From Embleya scabrispora (GTDB lineage Bacteria > Actinomycetota > Actinomycetes > Streptomycetales > Streptomycetaceae), in contig NZ_MWQN01000006.1 in assembly GCF_002024165.1 (NCBI RefSeq), positions 124,001 to 188,000 on the forward strand: DNA of 64,000 bases. The letters are read 5' to 3'. Position 1 is the stretch's first letter; every line of letters starts with the position of its first letter. The notes below the pieces were generated by a model, which worked only from the letters and a program-made list of their open reading frames with translations, did not search any database and was not told the origin of the DNA. Below are positions 13,620-62,646 of this stretch, piece after piece. The position numbers and the translations under genes are program-made.

Positions 13620-13988
13620 TCAGGGGCGGTGGTCGATGCCGGTGCCGGCGCTGCTGCCCGGTCCGTCGGCGACCGCGTCGCCGGTGTGTTCCGCGCGCGC
13701 CGACCCGCCTCCCGGTCCCGCGGGACCGCGGATGCCGGAATGGGCGTCACCACCGCGTGTCGCCTCGGCGCGGCCCGTGTCGACGGCCTCCTCGTTCACG
13801 GGCTGCGGGGCCGGGACGGGCGGTTTCTGGAACAGGGCCCACACCAGCGCGCCCACACCCGTGGCGCCTTGGACCGAGGCGCCCACCAGCTGCCCCGTGT
13901 CCGGGCCGTCCACCAACCACACCAACGGCGTCGAGACGACCACCACCACCGCGACCGCCACAACCGCGACCCTCCACGCCTGGGACAT
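13620..13988 (-). CDS. Small two-helix membrane protein, partner of module A
   Basis: A 122-residue protein. The first 50 residues hold two probable membrane helices (VAVVAVAVVVVVSTPLVWLV, and QGATGVGALVWALF), followed by a polar Gly/Ala/Glu tail of about 65 residues. It lies 55 bp upstream of the NB-ARC gene on the same strand. The third STAND module has a similar gene order (25158-25553), which supports a functional pair. Role unknown; a membrane anchor or pore-forming effector is a possibility, but only context supports that. Confidence 0.7.
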   Translation of the reverse strand: MSQAWRVAVVAVAVVVVVSTPLVWLVDGPDTGQLVGASVQGATGVGALVWALFQKPPVPAPQPVNEEAVDTGRAEATRGGDAHSGIRGPAGPGGGSARAEHTGDAVADGPGSSAGTGIDHRP

Positions 13989-18409: not shown

Positions 18410-18438
18410 CTTGACCCCCGAACCTCGCGGGCACGCCT

Positions 18439-19154
18439 TCACACGCCACCGATCAGGACATCGAAGCACGCCTCCGCCCGAAGCCGCAGCCGAACGCCGG
18501 ACTCCTCAACCTCCCGGCGGCCGGCCCTCGCGCGGCGAGGAACCGGTCGGCGAGTGGGCCGACGCGCGCGCCGGGTGTCGTTCCGCAGGGCGGTGCTGTG
18601 GATCTCGGCAGTCGGAGACGGTGCCGCGCACGAGAACCTCGACGGTTCGGTAGTCCGGTTCTCGATCCGGAGCCGGGTGCCCTCGATGACCGAGTCGTCG
18701 ATCAGGTGCCTCGATTCGGCCGCGGTGAGTCTCGAAGCCGCCGCCGGGGCAAGCGCTCTCGCCTGCGCGGCCGCGGCCGGTGGCGGCAGGTGGGGGCGAG
18801 CCTGCCGCTGGGCCTGGTGCTGCGGCGCGAGATCGCGCCGCTGTTGCACGCCGACCCGCTTGTGGCGGGCGAGCGGGAGTTGCCCGGCACGGTCGGTGGG
18901 CTGCCCGCACCACCACCGGTGCGGCGTGCCGGTGGTGCCCGAGGTCGTCGTGACCACGCGCACACCGAGTTCGGCCGCTACCGGCACCGTCCGCGCGTGG
19001 TCCATATCCGGGCGGAATTGCATCCGATGCAACTCGAGCCGGGCGTTGCCGCCAGGCGTGATCAGGTGGGTGGGCTTCTCGAACGCCAGGTGGTACTCGC
19101 CGGCGCGAAAGCGAACTCGCCCCTGGCCGGGATTGTAAACGTGTCCAGCTTCAC
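18439..19154 (-). CDS. Hypothetical protein upstream of module B
   Basis: The minus frame ending at 18439 has consistently high third-position GC from about 19140, with stretches such as VRFRAGEYHLAFEKPTHLI and TRLRIENRTTEPSRFSCA. It stops 30 bp before the module B small protein, so it probably heads the same operon. GTG 19154 begins a plausible N-terminus in a different frame, so a one-base indel near 19140 may exist. The middle is rich in Gln, Ala and Pro. No family recognised. Confidence 0.45.
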
Positions 19155-37730: not shown

Positions 37731-37891
37731 GGGTTCGGGACTCCTCACGAGCGGCGGGGTCCTCCGCCTCCGCCGACTGTCGCGGCGGGAGCGGACGACT
37801 CTCCGATGCTGTCGCCCGCGGGGGTCCGGCGGATCGCCGCCGCGGGTGAACCCGGACTCGCCGGCCGGAGGGAGGCGGGGCCGCCCGGGTC

Positions 37892-44897: not shown

Positions 44898-45476
44898 TCA
44901 GCCCCCGACGTAGGTCAGCTCCACGTCGATACCGGCCAACAGGAGCTCGCGGGCGGACTCCAGGGCCAAGCAGCCGCTCAGCCAGCGCCCGCTGAGGCCC
45001 TCGACCAGGGAGGTCATCCGCTGGGCGGCGGCATGCGCGGCGGCGACCGTGGCGTCGGGCACAGCCTGCCCGATGAGCGCGGCGATCTCCTCGCTCCACA
45101 ACTCGACGGCGTCGGCCAGGCTGCCGCGCAGAGTGTCGTCGAACATCGCGCTGGCGCGCAGCTCGCCCCACGCGGTGCTGTTCTCGCGCACCTCGGGGAT
45201 GTCCTGAAACTCCAGCAGCAAGGTCTGCTCGAGGACCTTCCGGGGCGTGTCGGCACCGGACTCGGCCACTCGCTCGCTCGTGTACGCGCCGGCCCGGTCG
45301 CTGATGAAGCCCAGCGTCGCACGCAGGATCCCGTCGCGATCCTTGAAGTGGTAGTAGATGAGCCCGGTCGAAACACCGGCCTCCGCTGCCAGCTCCTCCA
45401 CGCGCAGTCCGCGCACGCCCTTGCGGGCGATCTCACGGGCGGCGGCTTTCATGATCACAGTTCGACGGTCGGCCAC
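44898..45476 (-). CDS. TetR-family regulator 1 of a divergent paralogous pair
   Basis: A 192-residue protein from GTG 45476. HTH MKAAAREIARKGVRGLRVEE, LAAEAGVSTGLIYYHFKDRD, then a helical ligand domain (ENSTAWGELRASAMFDDTL). It is clearly paralogous to the divergent gene at 45642-46247, including the DIPEVRENSTAWGE and EGLS.RWL motifs and almost the same recognition helix. A palindrome lies between them. It probably regulates the agmatine deiminase genes to the right. Confidence 0.92.
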   Translation of the reverse strand: MADRRTVIMKAAAREIARKGVRGLRVEELAAEAGVSTGLIYYHFKDRDGILRATLGFISDRAGAYTSERVAESGADTPRKVLEQTLLLEFQDIPEVRENSTAWGELRASAMFDDTLRGSLADAVELWSEEIAALIGQAVPDATVAAAHAAAQRMTSLVEGLSGRWLSGCLALESARELLLAGIDVELTYVGG

Positions 45477-45576
45477 GACCCGACACTCTAGCCCCAACGG
45501 GCTCGCAGCCCCGAGGGGCCGCAGACGTCCGCCCTGCCCGCCGTTGTCCTCGCGATGCCTGCCCAACGCTAGACTG

Positions 45577-45641: not shown

Positions 45642-46247
45642 GTGTCTTCTCGCCGCCGATTGTCGATCCTGGAAACGACCGCTCGGCTCATAGCCCGCAA
45701 CGGCATACGCGGTCTACGGGTCGAGGAACTCGCGGCCGAGGCCGGCGTCTCGGTCGGCCTCGTCTACTACCACTTCGGCGACCGGTCCGGACTGATCCGG
45801 CACACCTGGGAGTTCATCAACGAGCGCGCCGAACGCTACACCGCCTCGGACGTCGACCCCGCCGTGGATCCGCGCGGCCACCTGGAGGACATGCTGCTGG
45901 CAGAACTGCAGGACGTCCCCGAGGTCGTGGAGAACAGCACCGCCTGGGGAGAGTTCCGCGCCGGCGCGATGTTCGCGGCGGAGCTCGGGCCGTCCGTGCG
46001 CGAGGCCCTGGACCGCTGGGTGGCCGACGCGGCCGAGCTGATCCGCGGCGCCCAGTCCCTCGGCGACGCATCCGCCGACACCTCGGCACTCGACGCAGCC
46101 GAGCGGCTGACCGCCCTCATCGAGGGCCTCAGCGAGCGCTGGCTGACCGGCGCACTGCCCGTGGAGCGGGCGCGCGACCTGCTGCGCGGCGCCCTGGACC
46201 TGGAGCTCGGACGCCGGGAACGTCAGCCCGCCACAGTGTCTGACTGA
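45642..46247 (+). CDS. TetR-family regulator 2 of a divergent paralogous pair
   Basis: A 201-residue protein from GTG 45642. HTH ETTARLIARNGIRGLRVEEL, AAEAGVSVGLVYYHFGDRSG, and a ligand domain paralogous to the divergent regulator (VPEVVENSTAWGEFRAGAMF). The stop codon overlaps a second copy of the operator. With the paralog it may read two related ligands through one operator type. Confidence 0.93.
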   Translation: MSSRRRLSILETTARLIARNGIRGLRVEELAAEAGVSVGLVYYHFGDRSGLIRHTWEFINERAERYTASDVDPAVDPRGHLEDMLLAELQDVPEVVENSTAWGEFRAGAMFAAELGPSVREALDRWVADAAELIRGAQSLGDASADTSALDAAERLTALIEGLSERWLTGALPVERARDLLRGALDLELGRRERQPATVSD

Positions 46248-46423: not shown

Positions 46424-47165
46424 GTGTCCGGATTCCGACCCGCGCACCGCGGCGTCCTGCGTGCCTTCGGTATCGGGACCGCAGGCGCGGCCGTCGCCGG
46501 ATCCGCCCTCGCCGATCCCGCCGCCGCCGCGGCGGCGGCCCCCGCCGGATCGTCCGGGCGGGCGTATGGCGGGAGCCGCCGCCTGCGGGTCCCCGCCGAC
46601 GACGTCCGGCACGCGCGCACCTGGATGTCCTGGCCTGCGAGCCGCTCCATCAGGGGCCGGCAGTTGTCCGGTGTGCAGCACGACATCGCCGGGATCGCCA
46701 AGGCGGTGACCGGCTTCGAACCGGTGATCATGTGCGCGGTAGACGAGGATGCCGCGGATCAGGCCCGCACGATGTGCGGCCCCGGCATCACGGTGACCAC
46801 TGACGAGGTCCCCACCGACGACCTGTGGATGCGCGACAGCTGCGCGGTGTTCCGCACGGATGGCACCGGCCGTGTCTCCGCCGTCCGAGGAGACCGACGC
46901 CAAGGGCCGCCCGCTCCAGGTCATCACCCTGCAGGGACCGCAGCACACCCGGTCGAGGAACCGCGATCTGGTCGACTCGTACCTGAACTTCCACCTCGTC
47001 AACGGCGCCGTCATCACCGCCCGGTTCGGCGACCCGCGCGCGGACGCGGCGGCCGAGGCCAAGCTCGCGAGCGCCTTCCCCGGACGCGTCGTGGTCCAAC
47101 TCGACGTCGACCGCCTGATGGGCGGCGGCGGAGGCATCCACTGCTCGACGATGCAGCAGCCCGCG
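46424..47165 (+). pseudogene. Agmatine deiminase-family gene with internal deletion
   Basis: From GTG 46424 (GAGG 7-9 bases upstream) the N-terminus is intact: export-signal-like stretch, VPADDVRHARTWMSWPASRS, DDLWMRDSCAVFRTDG. Near 46875 the coding frame shifts and resumes at ETDAKGRPLQVI, continuing to GGGGGIHCSTMQQPA with the catalytic Cys region. Compared with the intact paralog at 50532-51710, about 150 residues are missing, including the GEGGA.ETDG and H-x-D motifs, so it cannot be active. The normal stop is also lost. An operator copy remains upstream. Confidence 0.85.
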
Positions 47166-47341
47166 TCCCAGCCGGTCCGACCGGACGACCGGACGACCGG
47201 CCGGACCGTCGCCGGTGACGCGGCGCCGTCCCCGGCGGCATCCCCTCCTCCGCGTGCCCATTCGGGAGTCCCCGTGCACCCCTCCGGTGTCCCGCCCCTG
47301 TCCCGGCCCGCCTTCCAGCCCCCTCGCGCCGGACATATCCG

Positions 47342-47850
47342 CAGCGCGTCGGCGGACACGGATACCGGGTCGCGGCCCTGCTCGGGATCGGCGGCATGGG
47401 GTGGGTGTACCTGGCGTACACGCCCGGCGGACGGCCGGTGGCACTCAAGGTCGTCCGGCCGGAGTATGCCGCCGACCCCGAGTTCCGCGTGCGGTTCGCC
47501 CACGAGGTGGCCAACGCGCGGCGCATCCACGGCTTCCTCACCGCGCCCGTGGTGGACGCCGCGCCGACGCGGAGCTGCCCTGGCTCGCCGGCACGTACGT
47601 GCCGGCCCCTCGCTGCGGCAGGTCGTCGACGCCCGCGGCCCGCTGCCCACCCGTACGGTACTGCTGCTGATCGGTGGCATCGCCGAAGCCCTCCAGGAGA
47701 TCCACCGCGTCCACGTCGTGCACGGCGATCTCAAGCCCGCCGACGTCCTGGTCACCGCCGACGGGCCGCGCGTCATCGACTTCGGCATCGCCCGCGCCGC
47801 CGACACCGTCGCACTCACCGGTGTCGGCATCGGCAACGGAAATCGGCCAG
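47342..47850 (+). pseudogene. Serine/threonine protein kinase fragment
   Basis: Begins abruptly with YRVAALLGIGGMGWVYLAYT (glycine loop) and PVALKVVRPEYAADPEF (Lys), shifts frame near 47560, then continues with PAPSLRQVVDARGPLPTRTV, HVVHGDLKPADVLVT (catalytic loop, G-D instead of R-D) and VIDFGIARAADTVALTG. It ends before the activation segment and C-lobe. A Pkn-type relic, truncated at both ends and frameshifted. Confidence 0.75.
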
Positions 47851-47918
47851 ACCCGCGCGGAGGCTCCATCGGACGCCGCGGCCCGCACCCGGCGCCTGAC
47901 CGCCGAAGGGCCCCGCCG

Positions 47919-48791
47919 TCAGGCCGGGCCCGCGTCCGTGCGGGATTCCACCACCGCGCCCGCGAACACCGCCGCGGTCAGGCAGATCGCCACGATGGCC
48001 TCCGCCCACAGGAAGGCCAGGTAGTCCAGCAACGACCCGATCGGCGGGTTGCCGGGCGCGGTGTTGCGGAACGCGGCCAGGGCGAACAGCGTCGCCGCCA
48101 TCCACCCCAGCGCGGGCCAGACCAGCCCGCGGCGGCCGCCGACCATCACCTTCGCGCCGATGAAGACGGCGATGGCCAGTGCCCACATCGCCACGATCAT
48201 GAACACTGCGAACAGCAGGACCGTCCTGGACCGCTGCACGCCGAGGTCGAACCCGGCGACGCCGTGCTCGTTGGCCGCGTCGACGTCGATCGCGAAGAGC
48301 GCGTCGACGTTGACGAGGGTCATGGAGACCGGGACCGCCGCGCCGTCGGCCGTCGCGGAGAACGCGATGTCGGTGGCGTATTCGTCGAAGGGGTAGTCGG
48401 TGACCGCTCCCCCGGCCAGGGCGACGGGCACGTCCTTGGCGTCCACGCGAGTGTGGGCCGGGAACGTGAGGTCGCCGCGCACGTCCTGCGAGGTTCGCAG
48501 GACCAGGTCCTGGGACGTCAGCAGGCCGTCCTCCTCGGCGAGGCGCCCGCGCGGGGTGACCATGACGCGCAGGGTGAGCTCCCGCGCCGCCGCGTCGACG
48601 CGCTGCACGGTGGCCCTGACGTCGATGCGGTCGGGCGCGGGGTTCGGGGCGTGGTAGGTGGTGTCCAGCGCGATCCGCTCACCGACCTGCATCCACACCC
48701 CGACGGCCAGGATGAGTGCGACGACCATGGAGCCGACGACCGTGGCCGCGATACGTCGGCGGCTCCAGTGGCCTCGGGACGGACCTTTCAC
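47919..48791 (-). CDS. DUF4436-family membrane protein
   Basis: A 290-residue protein from GTG 48791. One N-terminal membrane helix (IAATVVGSMVVALILAVGVW), an extracytoplasmic beta-rich domain of about 150 residues (YPFDEYATDIAFSATADG), then three to four C-terminal helices (VLLFAVFMIVAMWALAIAVF, YLAFLWAEAIVAICLTAAVF). This fits DUF4436, whose function is unknown. It lies 57 bp downstream of the lipoprotein deiminase on the same strand, probably one operon. Confidence 0.75.
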   Translation of the reverse strand: MKGPSRGHWSRRRIAATVVGSMVVALILAVGVWMQVGERIALDTTYHAPNPAPDRIDVRATVQRVDAAARELTLRVMVTPRGRLAEEDGLLTSQDLVLRTSQDVRGDLTFPAHTRVDAKDVPVALAGGAVTDYPFDEYATDIAFSATADGAAVPVSMTLVNVDALFAIDVDAANEHGVAGFDLGVQRSRTVLLFAVFMIVAMWALAIAVFIGAKVMVGGRRGLVWPALGWMAATLFALAAFRNTAPGNPPIGSLLDYLAFLWAEAIVAICLTAAVFAGAVVESRTDAGPA

Positions 48792-48848
48792 GCGCGCCTC
48801 CGCACTGGTGGACTGGGCAGTGCCCGGACGGGCGCCGCGGAAAGCCGG

Positions 48849-50042
48849 TCAGGCCACGGGTGCGGTCGGCTGGTCGTGGGTCGCGCAATGGATGCCGCCG
48901 CCACCAGAGGCGATGACGTCGATCCGCACGGGGACGATGTCGCGGGTCGGGAAGTGGTCCTTGAGGATCTGCCCGGCGCGGTCGTCGGCGGCCCCGTCGC
49001 CGAACTTCGGGAAGAAGACGGCCTTGTTGCCGATGTAGAAGTTGGCATACGAAGACAGGAAATCGTCGCCGCGGCCGTTGGTCCTGGCGGGGTCGGGCTG
49101 CGGGAGGTCGACCACCTCGATGGTCTTGCCGCGCGCGTCGGTGGCGTCCTTCAGGACGCTGCGGGCCTGCGCGGCCGACATCGACCACGAGTCCTCGGGC
49201 TCGCCGGGGAACGCGGTGTCCAGCAGGACGACGCCGGGAGCGACGAACCGCACCAGCGCGTCCACATGGGCATCGGTGATGTCCTGGCCCCTGACCCCGT
49301 CGAACCAGATCATCGTGGTGACCCCGAGCAGCCTCTTCAACTCGTCCTCGATCTGCTGCCGGGTCTTGTCCGGGTTGCGGTTGGTGTTGACCAGTGAGCT
49401 CTCGGTGGCCAGCAGTGTCCCGGCGCCGTCGGTCTCCAGCGCGCCGCCTTCGCCCACGATCCAGGTCCGGTCGCGCGAGATGCCGTACCTGGCGAGGACC
49501 TCGCGGGCGACGAGCGCGTCGTTGGCGTGCGCCTGCTTGTCGCCCCAGCCGTTGAAGTCGAGGTCGACGCCGCGCAGCCTGCCGCCGTCCTCGACGAACA
49601 CCGGCGCGGTGTCGCGTGCCCACAGGTCGTCCACGGCGATGGGCACCACCTCGACGTCGGAGCCGCAGGCGGACTCGGCGGCGTCGGCCTGGTCGGGGCG
49701 GGCGAGCATGACCAGGGGCTCGGTGGCGGCGATGGCGCGGGCCAGGCGGGCGATGTCCGTGCGTACGGCAGGCAGGTCGGTGTCCCAGATGCCGGTGGAG
49801 GCGGGCCAGGACATGAACGTGCGCGCGTGCGGCTCCCATTCGGCGCCGAACCGGCGGCCGACCCGGGTCGGTGAGGGCGAGCCGGGCGCGCTCGGGTTCT
49901 CGCTCGGGCCGCCGGACGGCGCGGGCACCTGCGCAGCGTCGCCGGAGGAGTCGGAACACGCCGCGAGCCCGAAGGTGCCCGCGCCGACGCCGGCCATCGT
50001 GCGGAGCACTTGGCGGCGGGACACCGAAGGGGTATCGGTCAC
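48849..50042 (-). CDS. Agmatine deiminase-family lipoprotein, Tat-exported
   Basis: A 397-residue protein from GTG 50042. The N-terminus has a Tat motif SRRQVLRTM and a lipobox ending in Cys (FGLAAC). The deiminase domain has SWPASTGIW, DDLWARDTAPVF, GEGGALETDG, H-x-D in DAHVDALVRF and catalytic C386 in GGGGIHC. The family hydrolyses guanidino groups (agmatine to N-carbamoylputrescine plus ammonia, or peptidyl-arginine). The lipoprotein form would act on the outer face of the membrane. Divergent from 50532, sharing an operator region. Confidence 0.88.
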   Translation of the reverse strand: MTDTPSVSRRQVLRTMAGVGAGTFGLAACSDSSGDAAQVPAPSGGPSENPSAPGSPSPTRVGRRFGAEWEPHARTFMSWPASTGIWDTDLPAVRTDIARLARAIAATEPLVMLARPDQADAAESACGSDVEVVPIAVDDLWARDTAPVFVEDGGRLRGVDLDFNGWGDKQAHANDALVAREVLARYGISRDRTWIVGEGGALETDGAGTLLATESSLVNTNRNPDKTRQQIEDELKRLLGVTTMIWFDGVRGQDITDAHVDALVRFVAPGVVLLDTAFPGEPEDSWSMSAAQARSVLKDATDARGKTIEVVDLPQPDPARTNGRGDDFLSSYANFYIGNKAVFFPKFGDGAADDRAGQILKDHFPTRDIVPVRIDVIASGGGGIHCATHDQPTAPVA

Positions 50043-50531
50043 GAGTCCCGTCCTTCCGGATGGTGGAGAGGTCGGCGGACGGGCCGCGCCACCGCGATGA
50101 GGGCGACCGGAGCAACCGGACGGGTACCCCGTGCCGGCGTGTCCGTGCGGAGCGATCGGGTGCACCGCCGGGCGAACGAGTGAATGCGGGCGCGGACCGA
50201 GTGTCCGGATTCCCGCCGACAGCGGGGTGCCCGCCGGCAGGCGGCGGGCGGGTGATCCCGGACCGTCCGGACGGCGTCCGGGCCGTGGATGGCGGGTGAA
50301 GGACCCTTACCCCTCCATATCTTGACTGATTTTTCAGTCAGTGCCACAGTGTGGGCACGCCAACCGAAACCGTCCCGCGGCCCCGCCCGACGCTCCGGGC
50401 CCGACGGTCCGGCCTGGACCGTCGGATTCGGACACGGCGAGCGCGACACGAAGGTCCGCAGCGCACCGCCTCACCGCCCCATGTATCCGACCCCGCCGTT
50501 CCGGCGGGAGCAGCCGACAGGAGAGTCAGCC
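50043..50531. other. Shared regulatory region between divergent deiminase operons
   Basis: About 490 bp without a supported gene. Contains the operator palindrome at 50323-50340; a TTGACT at 50322 overlaps it and could be a -35 box for the rightward operon. Confidence 0.55.
50323..50340. promoter_or_regulatory. TetR operator, site 3 (between divergent deiminase genes)
   Basis: TGACTGA-TTTT-TCAGTCA, perfect 7-bp arms. It shares GACTGA..TTTCAGT with sites 1 and 2, so the same regulators probably act here. Located 192 bp before the rightward operon. Confidence 0.7.
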
Positions 50532-51710
50532 ATGCATGAAGCGCACGGTTCGAACCGCTCGGACGCGCTCGACGGCTCCGCCGCGCACCCGTCCCGCCGC
50601 AACTTCGTCGGCGCCGCGCTGCTCGGCGCCGCGGGCCTGACCGTCGGTGCATCCTCCCGGGCCGGCGCAACCCCGCGCACCGCCGCCAAAGCCCGGGTCG
50701 CTGCCGCCGTCCTGCGGGTCCCCGCAGACGACGTCGCACACGTACGCACCTGGATGGCGTGGCCGAGCAAGTCGTCGATCTGGGGCAACCGGCTCAGCGG
50801 CGTGCAGAACGACGTCGCGCTCATCGCCAAGACGATCGCCCGCTTCGAGCCGGTGGTCATGATGGCGGCGGACTCCTCCAGCGCGAGCACCGCACGGTCC
50901 AAGTGCGGCTCCACGGTGACCGTCATCAGCTCGATCCCGGTCGACGACCTGTGGGCCCGCGACACCGCGCCGGTGTTCCGAACCGACGGCTCCGGCCGCC
51001 GCGACGCGGTCGGCCTCGGCTTCAACGGCTGGGGCAGCAAGCAGACCCACGCCAAGGACGCCCTGGTGGCCTCCCAAATCGCCTCGTTCGACGGCCTGGC
51101 GTTCACCAGGGCCGGCTTCACCGGTGAGGGCGGCGCGATCGAGACCGACGGTGACGGCACCGTGATGGCCACCGAGTCCAGCCTGATCAACGGCAACCGC
51201 AACCCCGGCATGACCAAAGCGCAGGTCGAGGCCGCAGTGCTGGCCGCCTACGGGGCGACCAGGATGCTGTGGGTTCCCGGTATCAAGGGCCAGGACATCA
51301 CCGACGACCACATCGACGCCACCTCGCGGTTCATCCGCCCCGGCGTCGTCATGGTGCAGATGCCGCCCGCGAGCCGCACCGACATTTGGGCGCAGGACGC
51401 CCGCAAGCAGTTCCAGATCCTGTCCGCGGCGACCGACGCGAAGGGCCGCCGCCTGCGGGTGATCCGCATCGACGGGCCGGACACGGTGCGCTCCGACAGC
51501 GAGGACTTCGTCGACTCGTACATCAACTTCCACGTCTGCAACGGCGGCGTCGTCATGGCGCAGTTCGGCGACACGGCCAAGGACGCCGCGGCCAAGCAGG
51601 TCGTCGCCGCCGCTTTCCCGGGCCGCCAGGTCGTGCAGATCAACATCGACCGCATCGCCCTCGGGGGCGGCGGCGTGCACTGCACGACCATGCAGGAGCC
51701 CGTCGCCTAG
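50532..51710 (+). CDS. Agmatine deiminase-family protein, Tat-exported
   Basis: A 392-residue protein from ATG 50532 (AGGAG 8 bases upstream). Tat signal SRRNFVGAALLGAAG without a lipobox, so likely secreted. The deiminase domain has AWPSKSSIW, DDLWARDTAPVF, GEGGAIETDG, DDHIDATSRF and C384 in GGGGVHC; all expected catalytic positions are present. First gene of the rightward operon, followed by two further deiminases and an ABC transporter. Closest homolog in the window is the relic at 46424. Confidence 0.9.
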   Translation: MHEAHGSNRSDALDGSAAHPSRRNFVGAALLGAAGLTVGASSRAGATPRTAAKARVAAAVLRVPADDVAHVRTWMAWPSKSSIWGNRLSGVQNDVALIAKTIARFEPVVMMAADSSSASTARSKCGSTVTVISSIPVDDLWARDTAPVFRTDGSGRRDAVGLGFNGWGSKQTHAKDALVASQIASFDGLAFTRAGFTGEGGAIETDGDGTVMATESSLINGNRNPGMTKAQVEAAVLAAYGATRMLWVPGIKGQDITDDHIDATSRFIRPGVVMVQMPPASRTDIWAQDARKQFQILSAATDAKGRRLRVIRIDGPDTVRSDSEDFVDSYINFHVCNGGVVMAQFGDTAKDAAAKQVVAAAFPGRQVVQINIDRIALGGGGVHCTTMQEPVA

Positions 51711-51794
51711 GCAATGCCCGCAGCGTCCGACCGGCGCCGGACCACTCCTCCTGTGTCGTACAGCGCCCACCGCACTACCCGTTCGGAGTTCATC

Positions 51795-52961
51795 GTGTCT
51801 GGTTCGTCCATCTCCCGCCGCGCAGTCCTGCGCGGCATGGTCGCCGCCGGCGCCGTGGCCACCGGTGCCGCCGCCTGCTCCTCCGCCGAGGACGGTGCCG
51901 ACGAGCCCGCCGGCCGGGCAACGGGCCGGCCGGAAGGCGGCACTGCGGCACCGGCGGGGAGAAGGTTCGGCGCGGAGTGGGAAAAGCACGAGCGGACGCT
52001 CATGTCCTGGCCCGCCTCCGCCGGGATCCGGGGCAAGGACCTGCGCGAGGACGTGGCTCGGGTGGCCCGGGCGATCGCCGAGTTCGAGCCGGTGGTCCTC
52101 CTGACCCGCCCGGGCCAGGAGGACGCCGCCCGCAAGGCGTGCGGCTCCCTGGTCGAGGTGGCCGCCGTCCCGGTCGACGGCCTGTGGGCGCGCGATACCG
52201 CGGCGGTCTGCGTCGAGGATGCCGGGGCGCTGCTCGGCATCGACTTCAACTTCAACGGCTGGGGCGACAAGCAGACCCACGCCAACGACGGCAAGGTCGC
52301 CGCAGCCGTGCCGGCGCGCTACAACCTGGCACGGTTCCAGGCCCCGCTCGTGGCCGAAGGCGGCTCGTTCGAGACCGACGGGGCCGGCACGCTGATGGTC
52401 ACCGAGAGCTCGATCGTCAACGCCAACCGCAACCCCGGCAGGAACAGGGCCCAGCTCGAAGAAGAACCCAAGCGCACGCTCGGGGTCACGCAGGTGGTGT
52501 GGTTCGCGGGCGTGCGCGGCGAGGACATCACCGACGCGCATGTCGACTCGCTGGTGCGGTTCGCCGCGCCTGGCGTCGTGCTGCTCGACACGCCCTTCCC
52601 CTGCATGCCGGCCGACTCGTGGTCGCGGTCCGCCGACCGGGCCCGCGCGGTACCGAAGGACGCGGTGGACGCGCGGGGCAAGGCGTTCGAGGTGATCGAC
52701 CTGCCGCAGCCGGATCCGGACCGAATCACCGGCCGCGGCGACACGTTCCTGTCCACGTACGCCAACTTCTACATCGCGAACGGTGCGGTGCTCATCCCCG
52801 AGTTCGGCGACCCCGAGGCCGACGACCGGGCCAAGCGCATGCCGGCCGACCACTTCCCCGGGCGTGAGGTCGTCGCCGTTCCGATCGACGGCATCGCCTC
52901 CGGCGGTGGCGGCATCCACTGCTCCACCCACGACGTGCCGGCCGCGCCCGCGGCCCGGTAG
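51795..52961 (+). CDS. Agmatine deiminase-family lipoprotein, Tat-exported
   Basis: A 388-residue protein from GTG 51795. Tat motif SRRAVLRGM and a lipobox-like ATGAAAC, then FGAEWEKHERTLMSWPASA. Motifs: DGLWARDTAAVC, AEGGSFETDG, DAHVDSLVRF and C376 in GGGGIHC. The usual GEGG is AEGG here and RDT.PV reads RDTAAV, so activity may be altered. Most similar to the minus-strand lipoprotein at 48849. 84 bp after the previous gene, same operon. Confidence 0.86.
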   Translation: MSGSSISRRAVLRGMVAAGAVATGAAACSSAEDGADEPAGRATGRPEGGTAAPAGRRFGAEWEKHERTLMSWPASAGIRGKDLREDVARVARAIAEFEPVVLLTRPGQEDAARKACGSLVEVAAVPVDGLWARDTAAVCVEDAGALLGIDFNFNGWGDKQTHANDGKVAAAVPARYNLARFQAPLVAEGGSFETDGAGTLMVTESSIVNANRNPGRNRAQLEEEPKRTLGVTQVVWFAGVRGEDITDAHVDSLVRFAAPGVVLLDTPFPCMPADSWSRSADRARAVPKDAVDARGKAFEVIDLPQPDPDRITGRGDTFLSTYANFYIANGAVLIPEFGDPEADDRAKRMPADHFPGREVVAVPIDGIASGGGGIHCSTHDVPAAPAAR

Positions 52962-53065
52962 TCCCGGGCGTCGGCTCCGCCCGAGGCGATCCAGCCGACG
53001 AATCCCACCCACCGACCTCCTTTCCGCGGTTACCGCACCACCCACGATCGAAAGAGACAACACCC

Positions 53066-54079
53066 ATGACGTTCCGGATGCCCGCCGAGTGGACCGAGCA
53101 CGACCGCTGCCTGATGGCCTGGCCGACCCGCGCCGACCTGTGGGGCGAGATGTTCGCGTCCGCGAAGACGGAGTACGCCGCGGTCGCCCGCGCCATCGCG
53201 GAGTTCGAGCCGGTCACCATGGTCACCGTGCCGGGCTCGGGCGGCGAGGCCCGGACGCTGTGCGGCGAAGCGGTCACCGTCGTCGAACTGCCCATCGACG
53301 ACGCGTGGTTCCGCGACTCGGGCCCGATCTTCGTCACCGATGAGGACGGCCGCCGAGCGGGCGTCGACTTCCGGTTCAACGCGTGGGGCCGCAAGCACTC
53401 CCCGTGGGATTCGGACGACAAGGTGGCCGCGGCGCTGATCGCCCGGGTGGGCGACGAGCGCATCGCCTCGGACATGATCCTCGAGGGCGGCGCCATCACC
53501 GTCGACGGAGAGGGCACCCTCATCACCACCGAGCAATGCCTGCTGCACCCGAACCGCAACCCGGACATGAGCCGCGCCGAGATCGAGGCGGAGATCAAAG
53601 CGAAGCTGGGCGTCACCAAGATCGTCTGGCTGCCGTACGGCGGCCTGCTGGACGAGGAGACGGACGGACACGTCGACGGCGTATGCGCGTTCGTCGCGCC
53701 GGGCAAGGTGATCATCCAGCTGCCCGAGGACCCGGAGCACCCCGACTACGCCCGCTGCCGCGCGAACCGCGCCGTGCTGGAGGCGTCCACGGACGCGCGG
53801 GGCCGCCCGTTCGAGATCGTCGAGATCTCGCAGTCGAACGCCTTGCTCTGGGGCGGCATCGACATCGAGGTGTCGTACCTGAACTTCTACATCGCCAACG
53901 GCGGCGTCGTCGTGCCGGTCGCGGACCATCCCGCGGACGCCGGGGCGCTCGCCGTCATCCAGGCCGCCTTCCCCGACCGGAAGGTCGTCGGCGTCGTCAC
54001 CCCGACCGTCGCCTACGGCGGCGGCGGCGTGCACTGCATCACCCAGCAGGTCCCCGTCACGTCCTCGCCCTCCGCCTAG
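53066..54079 (+). CDS. aguA: Agmatine deiminase, cytosolic
   Basis: A 337-residue protein without a signal peptide (MTFRMPAEWTEHDRCLMAWP). It has DDAWFRDSGPIFV, LEGGAITVDGEG, TDGHVDGVCAF and catalytic C324 in GGGGVHC, closest of the five to classical AguA, which converts agmatine to N-carbamoylputrescine. GAAAGAGA lies 8 bases before the start. 32 bp before the ABC binding protein, so transport and hydrolysis are probably coupled. No putrescine carbamoyltransferase or N-carbamoylputrescine amidase gene is nearby. Confidence 0.9.
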   Translation: MTFRMPAEWTEHDRCLMAWPTRADLWGEMFASAKTEYAAVARAIAEFEPVTMVTVPGSGGEARTLCGEAVTVVELPIDDAWFRDSGPIFVTDEDGRRAGVDFRFNAWGRKHSPWDSDDKVAAALIARVGDERIASDMILEGGAITVDGEGTLITTEQCLLHPNRNPDMSRAEIEAEIKAKLGVTKIVWLPYGGLLDEETDGHVDGVCAFVAPGKVIIQLPEDPEHPDYARCRANRAVLEASTDARGRPFEIVEISQSNALLWGGIDIEVSYLNFYIANGGVVVPVADHPADAGALAVIQAAFPDRKVVGVVTPTVAYGGGGVHCITQQVPVTSSPSA

Positions 54080-54110
54080 CCCGCGCACTCCCCCTCGGAA
54101 GGGACTCCCG

Positions 54111-55787
54111 ATGCCCGGAAACGCTCCGTTCCCGTCCAGACCCTCCATACGCCGCGCCGCCGTCCCGGCCGCGGTGCTGGCGCTCGCACTCGTCGCGGCC
54201 TGTTCGGGACCGCCGAAGAACAACGACAACCCGGCGGGCCCGTCCGGGGGAGGCACCAACGCGGGCGGCTTCGCACTGTCGGCCGGGACCCCGCCGGCCA
54301 AGGGCGACATCGACAAGTTCGGCTGGGCGCTGTACGCCGAACCGCTCACCCTGGACTGGATCCAGGCGTTCGACTACCCGCAGAACACCGTGCTCTCGAA
54401 CGTCTGCGAGAGCCTGATGCGCTGGACCCCCGATCTGAAGGTCCAGCCGGGGCTGGCCCAGAAGGCGTCCAACCCGGACCCGAACACGTGGGTGTACGAC
54501 CTGCGCCAGGGCGTGAAGTTCCACAACGGCGAGACGATGACCGCGGACGACGTGGTCTTCAGCTTCGGCCGCCAGATGAACCCGGACCTGGCCGCGTCCT
54601 GGGCCGAGTCGTTCGAGAACGTCGACGCGGTAACCGCCACCGGCCCGCTGCAGGTCACCGTCAAGCTCAAGAAACCCGACTCGCTGTTCCCGCAGCTGAT
54701 GGCGACCGCGGCGGGCGTGGTGGCGAACCGCAGGGGCGTCGAGGCGCACGGCAAGGACTACGGCGTCGAAGGCAGCCTGGAGTGCACGGGCCCGTACAGG
54801 CTCGCCCGCTGGGCCAAGGGCCAGTCCGTGGACCTGGAGCGGTTCAACGGCTACTGGGGAACCAAGCCGAAGGCCAAGACGGTCGAGTTCAAGTTCCTCA
54901 CCGACCCCTCCGCGCGTACCAACGCGATGCTGAGCGGCGAGGTCGACGGCGGGTTCCTCATCCCGACCGAGAGCTACCAGCGGCTGCGCGCCGGCGGCGT
55001 CGGCACACTGTACGCGGGCGAGGGATTGAGCACGGTCAACGTGAACGTGACGAGCATGAAGGGCGCGCTCGGCGACGTGCGCGTGAGGCGGGCGCTGTCG
55101 ATGGCGCTGGACCGTTCCGGCTTCGTCAAGACCGCGCTGGCGGGCAACGGCACGGTCACCAACTCGATCACGCCCAAGGCGTCGTGGACGGGCTCCTCGC
55201 CGCAGGTGCCGGCCGACGCGTTCGACAAACTGCCGCCGTCCGCGCAGGACATCGACGGCGCGAAGAAGCTGATCGAGGAGGCGGGCGCCAAGGGCAAGAA
55301 GGTCGTCGTCGCGACCAGCCCGATCGGGCAGGACGTGAGCCTGCTGGCGACCGCGATCCAGGACGCCGGAACCAGGATCGGCCTCGACGTCGAGCTCGAG
55401 ACGATCGCGCCGGACGCGTTCTCGGCGCTGTTCACCGACCCGGCGGCGCGCGAGGGGATCGACATGTTCCCCGAGACGTACTACCTGTCGGTGACCGACC
55501 CGGTCGACCTGCTGCGCAACTTCCGGACCGGCGGGTACCAGAACCACGCCGGCTACTCGAACCCGGAGTACGACGCGCTGGTGGAGCAGATCACCGCGAC
55601 GTACGACCCGCAGCAGCGGATCGCGCTGGAGGCCAAGCTCCAGAAGATGGCCGCCGACCAGGTGCTGTGGATGCCGGTCGCCGAGTGGCCCTCCACGGTG
55701 TTCCTGAACAAGCGGATCACCGGCGCGCCTACCACCATCGCGTACATGTACTACCCGTGGGCGGCCGATGTGGGGGCCGCGGGGTGA
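54111..55787 (+). CDS. ABC transporter substrate-binding lipoprotein, family 5
   Basis: A 558-residue protein. Lipoprotein signal with lipobox LVAAC (C31), then the SBP_bac_5 fold (SNVCESLMRWTPDLKVQPGL, WVYDLRQGVKFHNGETMTAD, LECTGPYRLARW). This family binds oligopeptides, nickel and other cationic or peptide-like ligands. GGAAGGG lies 8 bases before the ATG. Stop overlaps the permease GTG. Context suggests an agmatine-like, arginine-containing or citrulline-like ligand, but this is inference. Confidence 0.94.
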   Translation: MPGNAPFPSRPSIRRAAVPAAVLALALVAACSGPPKNNDNPAGPSGGGTNAGGFALSAGTPPAKGDIDKFGWALYAEPLTLDWIQAFDYPQNTVLSNVCESLMRWTPDLKVQPGLAQKASNPDPNTWVYDLRQGVKFHNGETMTADDVVFSFGRQMNPDLAASWAESFENVDAVTATGPLQVTVKLKKPDSLFPQLMATAAGVVANRRGVEAHGKDYGVEGSLECTGPYRLARWAKGQSVDLERFNGYWGTKPKAKTVEFKFLTDPSARTNAMLSGEVDGGFLIPTESYQRLRAGGVGTLYAGEGLSTVNVNVTSMKGALGDVRVRRALSMALDRSGFVKTALAGNGTVTNSITPKASWTGSSPQVPADAFDKLPPSAQDIDGAKKLIEEAGAKGKKVVVATSPIGQDVSLLATAIQDAGTRIGLDVELETIAPDAFSALFTDPAAREGIDMFPETYYLSVTDPVDLLRNFRTGGYQNHAGYSNPEYDALVEQITATYDPQQRIALEAKLQKMAADQVLWMPVAEWPSTVFLNKRITGAPTTIAYMYYPWAADVGAAG

Positions 55788-56746
55788 TATTCCTGAGATT
55801 CGCCGTACGGCGGTTGCTGGAGATGGCCGTCACCCTGCTCGGCGCCTCGTTCGTGGTCTTCGGTGCGATGTACCTGGCGCCGGGGAATGCGGCGAGTTTC
55901 CTCCTGGGCGGGCGGTCGGCCTCGCCGGCCGCCCTTCGGGCGATCGAGAACCAGTACCACCTGAACGACCCGTTCATCGTGCAGTACGGCCGCTGGCTCG
56001 GGAACATCCTGCACGGCGACTTCGGCCGCTCGCTGCAGTACCGCACCGACGTGTCCGAACTTCTGTCCTCCCGGCTGCCCACCACGCTCCTCCTCGTCGG
56101 CATGGCGCTGGTCGTCGTCATCGTGCTCGGCCTGGCTCTCGGCTGGATCGGCGCGGTGCGCGGCGGCGCGACCGACTCGGGGATCCTGGTCGGCACCACG
56201 TTCGCGATCGGCACGCCGTCGTTCGTGGCGGCGATCCTGCTCCAGGGCCTGTTCGCGGTGCAGTTGGGTTGGTTCCCGTCCAGCGGCAGCGGAAGCGGGG
56301 ACGGGTTCGGCCGGATGCTGTGGCACCTGGCCCTCCCGGCCGTCGCGCTCGCGCTCTACCTGGTCGGGCTGCTGGCCCGGGTAACGCGGGCGGCGATGCT
56401 CGAGGCGATGGAGGGCGAGCACGTCACCGTCGCCCGCAGCCGCGGTGTCCCCGAACGGCACATCATCGGCCGGCACGTTTTCCGCAACGCGCTCGGCCCC
56501 GTACTGACCACCGCGGGCCTGATCGTCTCGACGCTGCTGGTGTGCACCGTGCTCGTGGAGTCCGCGTTCAGCGTCGGCGGCATCGGACAGCTTCTCGAAC
56601 TGTCCGCTACCACCAAGGACTTCCCGACCGTGCAGGCCATCTCCCTGATCATCATCGCGGTCTTCATGACCGTGAACCTCCTCGTCGACCTGCTGCTGCC
56701 CCTGGTCGACCCGCGCATCAGCCTGGGATCGAGGGCCGACGCATGA
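55784..56746 (+). CDS. ABC permease, DppB/OppB type
   Basis: A 320-residue membrane protein from GTG 55784, overlapping the binding-protein stop (GTGA). Six membrane helices; N-terminal FAVRRLLEMAVTLLGASFVV, DPFIVQYGRWLGNILHGDFG and the cytoplasmic EAA-like loop (ARSRGVPERHIIGRHVFRNA). First of two permease subunits. Confidence 0.94.
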   Translation: MIFLRFAVRRLLEMAVTLLGASFVVFGAMYLAPGNAASFLLGGRSASPAALRAIENQYHLNDPFIVQYGRWLGNILHGDFGRSLQYRTDVSELLSSRLPTTLLLVGMALVVVIVLGLALGWIGAVRGGATDSGILVGTTFAIGTPSFVAAILLQGLFAVQLGWFPSSGSGSGDGFGRMLWHLALPAVALALYLVGLLARVTRAAMLEAMEGEHVTVARSRGVPERHIIGRHVFRNALGPVLTTAGLIVSTLLVCTVLVESAFSVGGIGQLLELSATTKDFPTVQAISLIIIAVFMTVNLLVDLLLPLVDPRISLGSRADA

Positions 56747-57600
56747 GTTCCGTGACCCTCATCCGGCGTCCGGGCCTGTCCCGGATCCGCGCGAGGCGCG
56801 CTCCGCTGTACGTGGTCAGCCTGGTGTTCGTCGGCGTGGTCGTCGTCATGGCGCTGCTCGCGCCGTGGATCGCGCCGTACGACCCCAACACGGCCGAGCT
56901 CGGCAACGCGCTGGCACCGTCGTCGGCGGACCATCTGCTCGGTGTGGACGCGGCGGGCCGGGACACGCTGTCCCGGCTCGTCGTCGGGGCCCGCACCTCG
57001 CTGCTCGGCCCGCTCGGCGTGGTCGTCATCTCCACGCTGCTGGGCGCGGCGGTCGGCGTCGCGGCCGGCTGGCGCGGCGGCCGGCTCGACTCGCTGCTGT
57101 CGCGCGGCTCCGAACTGACGCTGGCCTTCCCGGGGTTGCTGATGGCGATCCTCATCGTGGCGGTCTACGGCGAGGGGCTCATGGCGCCGGTCGTGGCGCT
57201 GTCGATCGCGTACTTCCCGTACGTCAGCCGACTCACCCGCTCACTGGTGCTCGCCGAACGTGCCCGGCCCTACGTGGCCGCGTACCAGGTGCAGGGGCAC
57301 TCGGGGCCGCAGATCTGCGTCAAGCACGTGGTGCCCAACATCGCGCCGGTGGTGCTGGCGCAGTCCACCGTCAACTTCGGGTACGCCCTGATCGACCTGG
57401 CCGGCCTGTCGTTCCTCGGCCTGGGTGTCCCGGCTCTCACACCCGACTGGGGACGCATGGTCTTCGACGGCAAGTCCGCCATCCAGAGCGGCTATCCGCT
57501 CTCGGCGATCGTCCCGTGTCTGGCGATCATCCTCACCGTCGTGGCGTTCAACGTGGTCGGCGAGCGGTGGGCCGACAAGGTCGCGGGGAGGAAGCGGTGA
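56743..57600 (+). CDS. ABC permease, DppC/OppC type
   Basis: A 285-residue membrane protein; ATG 56743 overlaps the previous stop (ATGA). It contains APWIAPYDPN, HLLGVDAAGRDTLSRLVVGA (OppC N-terminal motif) and the EAA-like loop ending KHVVPNIAPVVLAQ. Six helices. Second permease subunit of the importer. Confidence 0.94.
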   Translation: MSSVTLIRRPGLSRIRARRAPLYVVSLVFVGVVVVMALLAPWIAPYDPNTAELGNALAPSSADHLLGVDAAGRDTLSRLVVGARTSLLGPLGVVVISTLLGAAVGVAAGWRGGRLDSLLSRGSELTLAFPGLLMAILIVAVYGEGLMAPVVALSIAYFPYVSRLTRSLVLAERARPYVAAYQVQGHSGPQICVKHVVPNIAPVVLAQSTVNFGYALIDLAGLSFLGLGVPALTPDWGRMVFDGKSAIQSGYPLSAIVPCLAIILTVVAFNVVGERWADKVAGRKR

Positions 57601-58577
57601 GCGCAACACTCGACATCCAAGGGCTGCGGCTGTGGCTCCCGGACACCGCCCGCCCGGTCTTGGACGGCGTCGACCTGACGGTCGGCCCGTCGGAGACGGT
57701 GGCGCTGGTCGGCGAGTCGGGCTCCGGCAAGACCCTGACGTCTCGCACGGTGCTGCGCCTGCTTCCCAAGGACGCAGAGACCCACGGCAAGGTCCTGGTC
57801 GCCGGAGACGACGTGCTGACCATGAACGCCAAGCAGCTGCGCAGGCTGCGCACACAGACCGCGGCGATGGTCTTCCAGGACCCGCGCGCCGCCATCAACC
57901 CGCTGCGCCGCATCGGCGACTTCCTCACCGAGGGCATGCGGCTCAACAAGCTGATGACGGCGCCGACGGCGACCGCACGCGCGGGCGAACTCCTGGACGC
58001 GGTCGGCCTGTCCGCTGATCTGATGGGAAGCTATCCGGGCCGGTTGTCGGGCGGCATGCTGCAACGCGTCATGATCGCCGCGGCGCTCATGGGCGACCCG
58101 AAGCTGCTGCTCGCCGACGAGCCGACCACCGCACTGGACGTCACCTCGCAGGCCGAGGTCGTCACGCTACTCGGCGACCTGCGCGAACGCTTCGGCACAG
58201 GGCTGCTGTTCGTCACCCACGACCTGGGGCTCGCCGCCGCGATCAGCGACCGTGTGTACGTGATGTACGCGGGACGTATCGCGGAGACCGGGCCTGCCGC
58301 GTCGATCTTCGCGCGGCCGCGACACCCGTACACCAGGGCGCTGCTCGAGTCGACGCCGAGCCTGGACGCCCCGCAGGGCCGGCTGACGGCCATCGAGGGC
58401 CGGCCGCCGGACCTGCGCAAGGACGTGGTCGGCTGTCCGTTCGCACCCCGGTGCGCGCTCGCCACCGAGGTGTGCACGACGACGGCGCCGCCCGTCTCCG
58501 CCGCGCCCGACGAGCCCGCGCACACCGCCGCATGCCACCACGCGGAACGTCTGGAACGGGAGGCCGCGGATGTCTGA
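57597..58577 (+). CDS. ABC ATPase, DppD/OppD type
   Basis: A 326-residue protein from GTG 57597, overlapping the previous stop (GTGA). Walker A GESGSGKT, signature LSGGMLQRVMIA, Walker B LLLADEPTTALD, H-loop FVTHDLG, and the C-terminal oligopeptide motif CPFAPRC with further cysteines, which may bind an iron-sulfur cluster as in related OppD/DppD proteins. Confidence 0.95.
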   Translation: MSATLDIQGLRLWLPDTARPVLDGVDLTVGPSETVALVGESGSGKTLTSRTVLRLLPKDAETHGKVLVAGDDVLTMNAKQLRRLRTQTAAMVFQDPRAAINPLRRIGDFLTEGMRLNKLMTAPTATARAGELLDAVGLSADLMGSYPGRLSGGMLQRVMIAAALMGDPKLLLADEPTTALDVTSQAEVVTLLGDLRERFGTGLLFVTHDLGLAAAISDRVYVMYAGRIAETGPAASIFARPRHPYTRALLESTPSLDAPQGRLTAIEGRPPDLRKDVVGCPFAPRCALATEVCTTTAPPVSAAPDEPAHTAACHHAERLEREAADV

Positions 58578-59403
58578 CTTTCTCCTCGAAGTCAGCGGAC
58601 TGACCCGCACGTTCGGTGAGGTGCGCGCGGTGGACGAGGTGTCGTTCACGTTGGCGAAGGCCGGTTCGCTCGGCATCGTCGGCGAGTCCGGGTCCGGTAA
58701 AACCACCACCGCCCGGATCATCGTCGGGTTGGAGCGCGCCGAGGGGGGCGTCGTGCGCGTGCACGGCGAGGAGCAGTCCGCGGGCGGGCGCGGACGGGCG
58801 GCCCGACTGGCCCGTGCCCGCCGCATCCAGATGGTGTTCCAAGACCCCTACCTGTCGCTCGACCCGCGCACCAGCGTCCAGGACGTGCTGCGGGAGACCC
58901 TCAAGCTGCACTTCCCGGACATCGACCACGCCTCGCGCATCCGGGAGTTGCTCGACCGAGTCGGGCTCGGCACGCGGGCGGCGGAGGCACGGCCGCGCGA
59001 ACTGTCCGGCGGGCAGCGGCAGCGCGTCGCCATCGCGCGGGCCATCGCGGTCGAGCCTGCCATCCTCGTCCTCGACGAGGCGGTCGCCGCGCTGGACGTC
59101 TCGGTCCAGGCGCAGATCCTCAACCTGCTCGCGGATATCCGCGAACAGACCGGTATCGGCTACCTGTTCATCACGCACGACCTGGGCGTGGTGCGCTGCG
59201 TCACGGATGACGTGATCGTGATGCGGCGCGGGCGGATCGTCGAGGCGGGTCGCACCGCGGACGTGCTCACGTCGCCGCAGCACCCGTACACGCAGCTGCT
59301 GCTGGCCTCCGTGCCACGGCCCGGCTGGGACCCGAAGGCCATCGGACAGGCGCGGCGCGCACTGGCGGATGCCGCCGAGGGCCGGCCGGCGAAGGCGGGC
59401 TGA
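58570..59403 (+). CDS. ABC ATPase, DppF/OppF type
   Basis: A 277-residue protein overlapping the previous gene by 8 bases. Walker A GESGSGKTT, signature LSGGQRQRVAIA, Walker B ILVLDEAVAALD and H-loop FITHDLG. It lacks the long Cys-rich C-terminal extension of its partner. Last gene of the operon, followed 8 bp later by a strong terminator. Confidence 0.95.
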   Translation: MSDFLLEVSGLTRTFGEVRAVDEVSFTLAKAGSLGIVGESGSGKTTTARIIVGLERAEGGVVRVHGEEQSAGGRGRAARLARARRIQMVFQDPYLSLDPRTSVQDVLRETLKLHFPDIDHASRIRELLDRVGLGTRAAEARPRELSGGQRQRVAIARAIAVEPAILVLDEAVAALDVSVQAQILNLLADIREQTGIGYLFITHDLGVVRCVTDDVIVMRRGRIVEAGRTADVLTSPQHPYTQLLLASVPRPGWDPKAIGQARRALADAAEGRPAKAG

Positions 59404-61575: not shown

Positions 61576-62189
61576 ACCAGCCCCGGCCCTTCCCGAAGTC
61601 CGGCGGCCGACCCCGCGGACCCCGGACGACGACGCCCCTTCGAGGAGCGTCGAGGCGGCCACGGCACATCGCGGCCCCGCCGGGAGAGGCGATGCCACCT
61701 GCACCGTCCGCAAGGGCGACGGGACCACCACGGTCACCGTCATCAGCCCTCGGCCCTCACGGAACCGTGCGCAATGGTCTCCCGATACACGGCTCTTGTC
61801 ACTCTGGTCATCGAACTTCCGCACACTCGAATCTCGCGCCCGCACGGCGCGTGGGCGCGCACACGCAGGGACTGGGCGTAGATGGCCTCAAGGACGTCGA
61901 CGAAGCCGGGCCTCGGTCGGTGTGACGACCGCGAAACAGGATGCACGAGGCTCAGGGGACAGATCCGGCGCGCGCCGCCTGGCCACCGCTCACAGTGCTC
62001 CGGCGGAATGACCGCCCGGGGCCGATGCCATCGGTGAACGCCGCTCGGTGCCTCGGACCAGGGGCACTGTCACGGATGGCGCTGACGTTGTTTGGCGGGC
62101 TCTGGCAGCGATCACGGGGAGCCGTCACGCTCGGTGAGAACGCCCAGACCCGCAGAGGGGTGTGGGGTGACGGCGCAGGCATTGAGGGA
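61576..62189. other. Intergenic stretch next to a transposase remnant
   Basis: About 610 bp with no supported gene. A short plus frame near 61690 (CTVRKGDGTTTVTVI) may be a relic. The sequence adjoining the transposase break at about 62197 is probably unrelated flanking DNA. Confidence 0.45.
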
Positions 62190-62646
62190 ACCATGTGTAG
62201 ACCTCGGCCAGGTGGGGCTGGACCTCGCCGGTGGTCAGCCCCTTCGCGGACAGCGAGATCACCATCTCGTCCACCTCCGACAGACGCCGCTGCCGCTCGC
62301 GGACGATCCGCGGCTCGAACGATCCGTCGCGGTCCCGCGGCACCGATATCTCCACCGGGCCCACATCGGTCAACACGGTCTTCGCGCGCGTGCCGTTGCG
62401 CAAGTTCCCGCGGTTGTCCCCGACCGGATCGTGCTTCTCATACTCGAGATGGTCGGTGATCTCACCCTCGAGAGCGGACTCGAGAATCCGCTTGGTCAGT
62501 TGCTGCAACAGCCCGCCCTCGCCCACCAGATCCAGGCCCTGGGCCCGGGCCCGACCCACCAACTCGTTCAACCGGCCGTCCACAGCCTCATCGGCGACGC
62601 CCTCAACCGGGCTGTCCTGCACCGGCTCTGACATCACGTCAGTCAT
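62190..62646 (-). mobile_element. IS256-family transposase N-terminal remnant
   Basis: From ATG 62646 about 150 residues match the start of mutator-type IS256 transposases: LLQQLTKRILESALEGEITD, HLEYEKHDPVGDNRGNLRNG, VPRDRDGSFEPRIV and SLSAKGLTTGEVQPHLAEVY. Homology stops near 62197; the catalytic DDE part is gone, and the frame runs on as random sequence to 62125. A dead remnant; no terminal inverted repeats were found. Confidence 0.88.

Follow-up and report, generated by a model that had tools for sequence, protein, structure and literature searches.

An array of agmatine deiminase-family (PF04371) genes adjoining a family-5 ATP-binding cassette (ABC) importer was investigated in Embleya scabrispora, on a 64,000-nucleotide stretch of contig NZ_MWQN01000006.1 (positions 124,001 to 188,000), hereafter the window. 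Four full-length deiminase genes, D2 to D5, and one relic, D1, were located within a span of 7.5 kb (Table 1). At a PF04371 cut-off of 25 bits, D2-D5 covered the whole profile with scores of 320-391 bits, and the D1 relic gave two matches, at 46586-46861 (profile positions 1-87) and, in another frame, at 46884-47162 (profile positions 229-321). The 11 Mb genome contained seven PF04371 matches, six of them inside the window and the seventh being a housekeeping copy at C1:5440047. The translations and domain matches agreed with a preliminary description of this DNA, which had counted five deiminase-family genes in less than 8 kb, one of them a relic, and had assigned signals for twin-arginine translocation (Tat) to three complete copies, two with lipoboxes, and a cytosolic location to the copy directly adjoining a complete family-5 importer; one of the complete copies, D4, is likely decaying. 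Its start at position 51795 was judged likelier than that at 51714.

The importer was complete in the window and consisted of an SBP_bac_5 substrate-binding protein (SBP), two BPD_transp_1 permeases and two oligo_HPY ATPases. Among the matches listed for its genes, none was to a substrate-specific NCBIfam model over cut-off. The gaps in the series D5-SBP-PermB-PermC-AtpD-AtpF were 31, 2, -4, -4 and -8 bp, and those of D3-D4 and D4-D5 were 3 and 104 bp; because of these short gaps and overlaps, the stretch from D3 to AtpF reads as one plus-strand operon.

Table 1. Genes of the deiminase-importer locus and its flanks, in window coordinates.
Feature	Coordinates	Strand	Basis
D1, relic of exported PF04371 deiminase	46586..47162	+	N- and C-terminal thirds, two frames, middle missing
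D2, deiminase, predicted Tat signal and lipobox	48849..50042	-	PF04371 full-length; SRRQVL...GLAAC
D3, deiminase, predicted Tat signal, without lipobox	50532..51710	+	PF04371 full-length; SRRNFV
D4, deiminase, predicted Tat signal and lipobox, open frame, probably decaying	51714..52961	+	PF04371; SRRAVL...GAAAC
D5, cytosolic deiminase, first gene of importer block	53066..54079	+	PF04371 full-length; no signal
SBP_bac_5 lipoprotein	54111..55787	+	lipobox VAAC
Permease B (PermB)	55790..56746	+	BPD_transp_1
Permease C (PermC)	56743..57600	+	BPD_transp_1, OppC_N
ATPase D (AtpD)	57597..58577	+	ABC_tran, oligo_HPY
ATPase F (AtpF)	58570..59403	+	ABC_tran, oligo_HPY
DUF4436 membrane protein	47919..48791	-	domain match
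TetR regulator	44898..45566	-	TetR_C_6; BetI-like below cut-off
Second TetR regulator, divergent from first	45642..46247	+	TetR_C_6

Conservation of the deiminase-importer set

The linkage was assessed in 150 Streptomycetaceae genomes, 108 of which contained PF04371 by profile search; neighbor counts in these genomes refer to the deiminase matches listed (at least 150). An orthologous SBP (at least 67% identity) was found in 22 of the 150 genomes. Among the matches listed, all 22 orthologues were situated within 300 bp and on the same strand of a PF04371 gene, in comparison with 0/30 for the next-best 30 SBP paralogues (40-65% identity). Genomes with the cluster had a median of 7 PF04371 matches, fragments included (4-9, n=22), versus a median of 1 (1-14, n=86) in the other genomes with PF04371. 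The gene order D5-SBP-PermB-PermC-AtpD-AtpF was retained in 19/19 loci picked for their best D5-type matches. A scan of named genomes, which covered the best 80 of 130 D5-type loci, recorded the whole importer block at 72 of 80; 6 loci were without it and 2 ended too early. An exported-type deiminase was present within 10 kb in 68 of the 72 loci with a complete importer. The genera with the cluster included Streptomyces, Kitasatospora, Streptacidiphilus, Yinghuangia, Embleya, Nonomuraea, Microtetraspora and Catenulispora. Based on these counts, it was concluded that the deiminase-importer set is a real, conserved system, beyond chance. The co-occurrence put forward in the preliminary description was thus recovered, and the scattered homologues named there as fatal to the proposal were not what was seen, because deiminases and importer form a conserved linked set. 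One genome (G073) had 14 PF04371 matches and a broken-looking importer ATPase beside one of them (L042).

Tat-like signals were called by a home-made rule, which misses some, such as a P. aeruginosa signal plain by eye. They were recorded in 140 of 178 exported-type homologues (52 with a lipobox), 1 of 86 D5-type and 2 of 17 housekeeping proteins, and D2, D3 and D4 are predicted to be exported. As regards the earlier proposal of hydrolysis outside the cell followed by import, the linkage spoke for it, and its export step stands as a prediction from these signals. The catalytic Cys, Glu and Asp204 were retained in 286/286 homologues and the His in 285/286.

In a deiminase tree of 101 rows, one side of a 100/98 branch held 57/57 exported-type rows together with P. 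aeruginosa Agu2A'-like and Phyllobacterium proteins, and the other side held D5 (27 rows, 84/76), the housekeeping copies (12 rows, 100/100) and other deiminases. The P. aeruginosa plasmid operon (L258) had the order deiminase-aguB-SBP-deiminase, one of the two deiminases having a Tat signal and belonging to the exported clade. The Phyllobacterium gene of that clade adjoined an importer and aguB. Seven neighborhoods (H6, H7, H9, H10, H11, H12 and H22) of 22 proteobacterial plasmid records were inspected; a binding protein or importer was found at the deiminase in 4/7 and aguB in 2/7. Exported copies, regarded as unusual in the preliminary description, have a precedent in the Tat-signal deiminase of the P. 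aeruginosa operon, a member of the same clade. The exported half of the system is less novel than was held there, and the divergent urease described below is the greater surprise.

The AlphaFold model of D3 (pLDDT 90.3) had agmatine deiminases as its nearest folds (TM 0.84-0.86, vs 0.72-0.73 for PPAD); that of D5 (pLDDT 67.9) was set aside. Window D5 was 87% identical to its Yinghuangia seranimata homologue versus 78% to that of the congener Embleya hyalina, and window D3 was likewise nearer Yinghuangia, a pattern that hints at either transfer or loss in some lineages.

The divergent urease, gene loss and flanking genes

An unbiased clustering of neighbor genes yielded two families, a fused urease gamma-beta subunit (UreAB) and a urease alpha subunit (UreC'). 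UreAB-UreC' was situated within the cluster at 15/19 best-D5 loci (two of the 15 being cut by contig ends), and UreC' within 10 kb in 41/72 named importer loci, or 29/49 full-length ones. No UreC' was found in flanks widened by 20 kb at the G113 and G030 loci, and nothing of relevance was found on the presumed neighboring contig of G053. D5, the importer and UreAB-UreC' were consecutive and co-directional in Nonomuraea sediminis (L245) and Microtetraspora fusca (L247), with UreAB-UreC' placed after the last ATPase. UreC' was present in 99/108 genomes with PF04371 and in 0/42 without it (raw counts, kinship ignored). At least 92 of 111 UreC' matches had a PF04371 gene within 300 bp on the same strand; among the deiminase matches listed, 8 of the remainder had one within 5 kb, 2 had one farther away and 9 had none on the contig. 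The single-copy deiminase of most Streptomycetaceae was also tied to UreC', which is the operon partner of the housekeeping deiminase. A class-wide draw of 394 genomes gave 29 UreC' loci outside the family; several of those that had no deiminase in the stretch inspected were located by a transporter, which was of polyamine type in L152 and L160 (TIGR01187 over cut-off) and of amino-acid type in L149. In the distant actinobacteria L149, L154 and L160, the divergent urease was accompanied by an Amidohydro_3 protein and an importer in place of a deiminase.

UreC' sequences scored 641.7 and 639.1 against the TIGR01792 cut-off of 680 (873.9 for a canonical copy) and passed the NF009686 subfamily cut-off of 354. 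When 73 variant sequences were aligned with only two canonical ureases, the His, Lys and Asp that bind the metals, together with the catalytic flap His, were retained in 73/73, and the flap Cys in only 3/73; the residue numbering follows the Klebsiella urease. In the pocket, SDSQAMGR was changed to an SDAQGMGR-like motif and EGAGGGH to EGCGGGH, the Ala-to-Gly and Ala-to-Cys replacements being found in 73/73. The pocket has been remodelled and is probably larger, so that a substituted urea would fit it better than urea. No urease accessory genes were observed in the UreC' neighborhoods seen. A UreF match was missing in 10/99 UreC' genomes versus 9/51 others, and in two single-contig genomes of these ten (G072 and G139) there was no second urease over E 1e-150. 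The UreC' genomes without UreF are a hint that maturation of UreC' may not require the standard nickel helpers.

AguB was not found over cut-off in any of the 150 Streptomycetaceae genomes, nor at E<=1e-60 in this genome. It was rejected as the missing step, as only sub-threshold homologues occurred (141/150 genomes, best 269.7 bits vs 410.25), with or without deiminases. A CN_hydrolase at 36207-37748 was also discarded as an AguB candidate, since it was an apolipoprotein N-acyltransferase-like protein. The preliminary description had argued from the lack of a nearby carbamoyl-processing gene against simple agmatine catabolism; this lack holds for the window but is misleading, as close relatives have a candidate, the divergent urease, exactly there. 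A literature search outside subscription papers returned no paper on a deiminase-importer-urease linkage, N-carbamoylputrescine with urease included.

In each of the three congeners searched, ureAB'-ureC' is still present next to the housekeeping deiminase. Compared with the congener G001 (92-96% nucleotide identity), E. scabrispora lacked 2.6 kb whose ends lie within about 30 bp of ureAB'-ureC', and about 0.3 kb beside this gap did not align with G001. The deletion spared the housekeeping deiminase (G000:C1; L048 11939-11951 vs L094 10246-12856). In E. hyalina and Y. seranimata, the gene pair UreAB-UreC' directly precedes D5 in the cluster; the window has no such pair at this site. D4 departed at four columns that were >97% conserved in the 178 exported homologues (W106R, D156G, F166C and L314P), the second most departures among the 178, and had three further unusual prolines; D156 aligned with plant Asp89. 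D2 had one departure at near-invariant columns, and D3 and D5 had none. These substitutions suggest that D4, its open frame notwithstanding, is probably decayed or decaying. The importer and the deiminases D5, D3 and D2 appear to be maintained, whereas the cleavage of ureido groups and two of the exported copies seem lost or on their way to being lost. In this genome, the pathway seems to be in partial decay.

The TetR gene at 44898..45566 is probably the regulator of the locus. A lipobox deiminase also adjoined a TetR gene in Tsukamurella tyrosinosolvens "plasmid" records L102 and L264. These records contain chromosomal genes, dxr, ispG and pks13 among them, and are probably pieces of a chromosome. 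The DUF4436 protein recurred near lipoprotein-type deiminases in 19/80 named loci. Elsewhere in the window, two large NB-ARC/TPR proteins (10739-13753 and 15096-18449) and a Mutator-family transposase fragment (62125-62646, near the end of the contig of the cluster) were noted. Rfam and tRNA searches across the window found nothing.

Substrate and proposed function

According to the available text of PMC6447857, Asp220 and Asp89 of the plant agmatine deiminase bind the amine of agmatine, and bacterial agmatine deiminases bind it in a manner different from that of the plant enzyme. The equivalent of Asp89 was present in 86/86 D5-type and 177/178 exported proteins, window D4 being the exception, and the position of Asp220 was occupied by an acid, Glu, in 82/86 D5-type proteins. 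D5 would thus suit an amine substrate, and the exported copies perhaps would too. The housekeeping deiminases mostly had Arg two residues before the His; the housekeeping deiminase/UreC' pair probably takes a substrate other than an amine, for instance a guanidino acid.

From the computed genes, families, linkage, predicted signals, catalytic residues, clade membership and deletion we infer a route in which export, substrate, the direction and ligand of transport, and the entire UreC' reaction are all putative. Tat-exported deiminases, some of them lipid-anchored, would convert external guanidino compounds to ureido compounds and ammonia. The family-5 lipoprotein importer would take up the product or the substrate, and the co-transcribed cytosolic D5 would deiminate whatever enters undeiminated. 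In many relatives, UreAB-UreC' would then split the ureido compound into amine, CO2 and ammonia, which is the task of AguB in the agu2-type operon. Since the urease-like genes have been lost from this genome and, of its exported copies, one is a relic and one is probably decaying, only deimination and import would be left. It was proposed that the locus serves an Agu2-like scavenging of external guanidino compounds, likeliest agmatine or agmatine-like amines, and that a ureido hydrolase of urease origin takes the place of AguB; we consider this reading evenly poised between acceptance and doubt. It is possible, and we suggest it tentatively, that UreAB-UreC' is a urease-fold hydrolase of ureido groups on larger deiminase-made molecules rather than of free urea. 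As such it would be a third alternative to AguB and putrescine transcarbamylase that may dispense with the usual nickel accessory set. Together with the exported deiminases and the Opp-type importer it would form an unnamed outside-in guanidino pathway in Streptomycetaceae.

Several results weigh against this proposal. UreC' was found neither in the window nor in the whole genome, which has a single canonical urease only, so the final step is not performed by UreC' here. UreC' was not within 10 kb in 31/72 importer loci (20/49 full-length ones), and outside the family only 12/29 UreC' loci had a deiminase in the stretch inspected, 9 of the 12 being adjacent on the same strand. D2-D5 all fell under the cut-off of 381.8 of the AguA equivalog TIGR03380 (D5 362.4, D2 251.7, D3 235.2, D4 210.6). 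The exported copies had Ile or Val at the plant Asp220 position in 178/178, with an Asp one residue before in 178/178, a motif shared with the P. aeruginosa protein, and the housekeeping deiminases, the tightest tied to UreC', had Gly there in 17/17; the substrate of both groups may therefore not be agmatine, which is the weakest part of the proposal. The importer is of the Opp/Dpp-like family, which is more commonly associated with peptides, and the cluster is without a Pot-type importer. An Asp in OppA/DppA binds the peptide amino group; with the register in SBP alignments uncertain, this residue was not used.

In an alternative, which the Opp/Dpp-like type of the importer would fit, the exported enzymes are peptidyl-arginine deiminases (PADs) that citrullinate arginine in secreted peptides, either the producer's own ribosomally synthesized and post-translationally modified peptides, e.g. 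citrulassin-type lasso peptides, or foreign ones, and the citrulline peptides enter through the Opp-type importer. The active-site loop that connects repeats four and five has 17-21 residues where the plant enzymes have a long lid, and would admit a larger substrate. A distally encoded Streptomyces PAD forms the citrulline of citrulassin A, as far as the accessible parts of PMC9266682 and PMC12971885 state. We nevertheless find this alternative unlikely, as the D3 fold is closer to agmatine deiminases than to PPAD, the nearest characterised-looking relatives of the exported clade adjoin aguB, and a part for the linked urease-like enzyme in peptide citrullination is not apparent. The D5-importer block (L235) also occurs in S. 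katrae NRRL ISP-5550, a weak point as the des-citrulassin host is another strain, NRRL B-16271.

It is more doubtful still that the locus protects its host, or aids it in competition, by altering or degrading guanidino antibiotics or other natural products extracellularly. The many diverged exported paralogues in cluster genomes, the patchy spread (22/150), the TetR regulators and the lipid-anchored copies would fit such a role, but no biosynthetic genes were found among the window proteins searched, the co-linearity of the urease-like and importer genes points to catabolism, and catalytic residues and linkage were kept across genera with differing natural products. That the exported enzymes chiefly release ammonia or clear an external signal, with import secondary, is least probable: agu2ABCA' is described as responding to environmental agmatine and as acting on biofilm while changing agmatine levels little (in the portions available of PMC4211729 and PMC4287709), but D5 is tightly co-linear with all five importer genes in 72/80 loci.

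If the scavenging of external guanidino compounds is indeed the function, many proteins of Streptomyces and its kin named "agmatine deiminase family" or "urease subunit alpha" are wrongly or incompletely named, and would belong to one pathway that takes nitrogen from such compounds with a remodelled urease as the last step. This would provide a testable function for a second, widespread urease, would explain the families of exported deiminases, and would caution against taking a lone deiminase match as a marker of a citrulassin PAD.

Comparison with known systems

Like the urease UreC (TIGR01792), UreC' has all the metal ligands, the lysine and the catalytic flap His, and UreAB is a fused gamma-beta subunit. 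UreC' differs in scoring below the equivalog, in having mostly lost the flap Cys and in its pocket Ala changes, and accessory genes were not seen nearby. The AguA/AguB pathway (TIGR03380/TIGR03381) shares the PF04371 fold and catalytic residues, and D5 has an acid at the amine site; the differences are that the window deiminases are all under the AguA cut-off and that AguB over cut-off occurs in 0/150 genomes. The citrulassin PAD (WP_064069847.1), a distally encoded Streptomyces deiminase likened here by description only, is probably of the same superfamily. The genomic contexts of PADs were reportedly surveyed by Harris et al. in 2020, and part of the linkage may be published there.

The closest resemblance is to agu2ABCA' of P. 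aeruginosa, which has two deiminases, one with a Tat signal, and a binding protein, the exported deiminases being of the same clade. The plasmid locus L258 is probably agu2ABCA', judging by its gene order, and Agu2A' is said to have been found by Williams et al. in 2010 to be exported by Tat. The Embleya locus differs in its several exported paralogues, in the full family-5 importer within the operon and in having no AguB, and its relatives possess the urease-like enzyme. The locus is thus a multi-copy, importer- and urease-linked variant of the Pseudomonas exported agmatine-deiminase operon.

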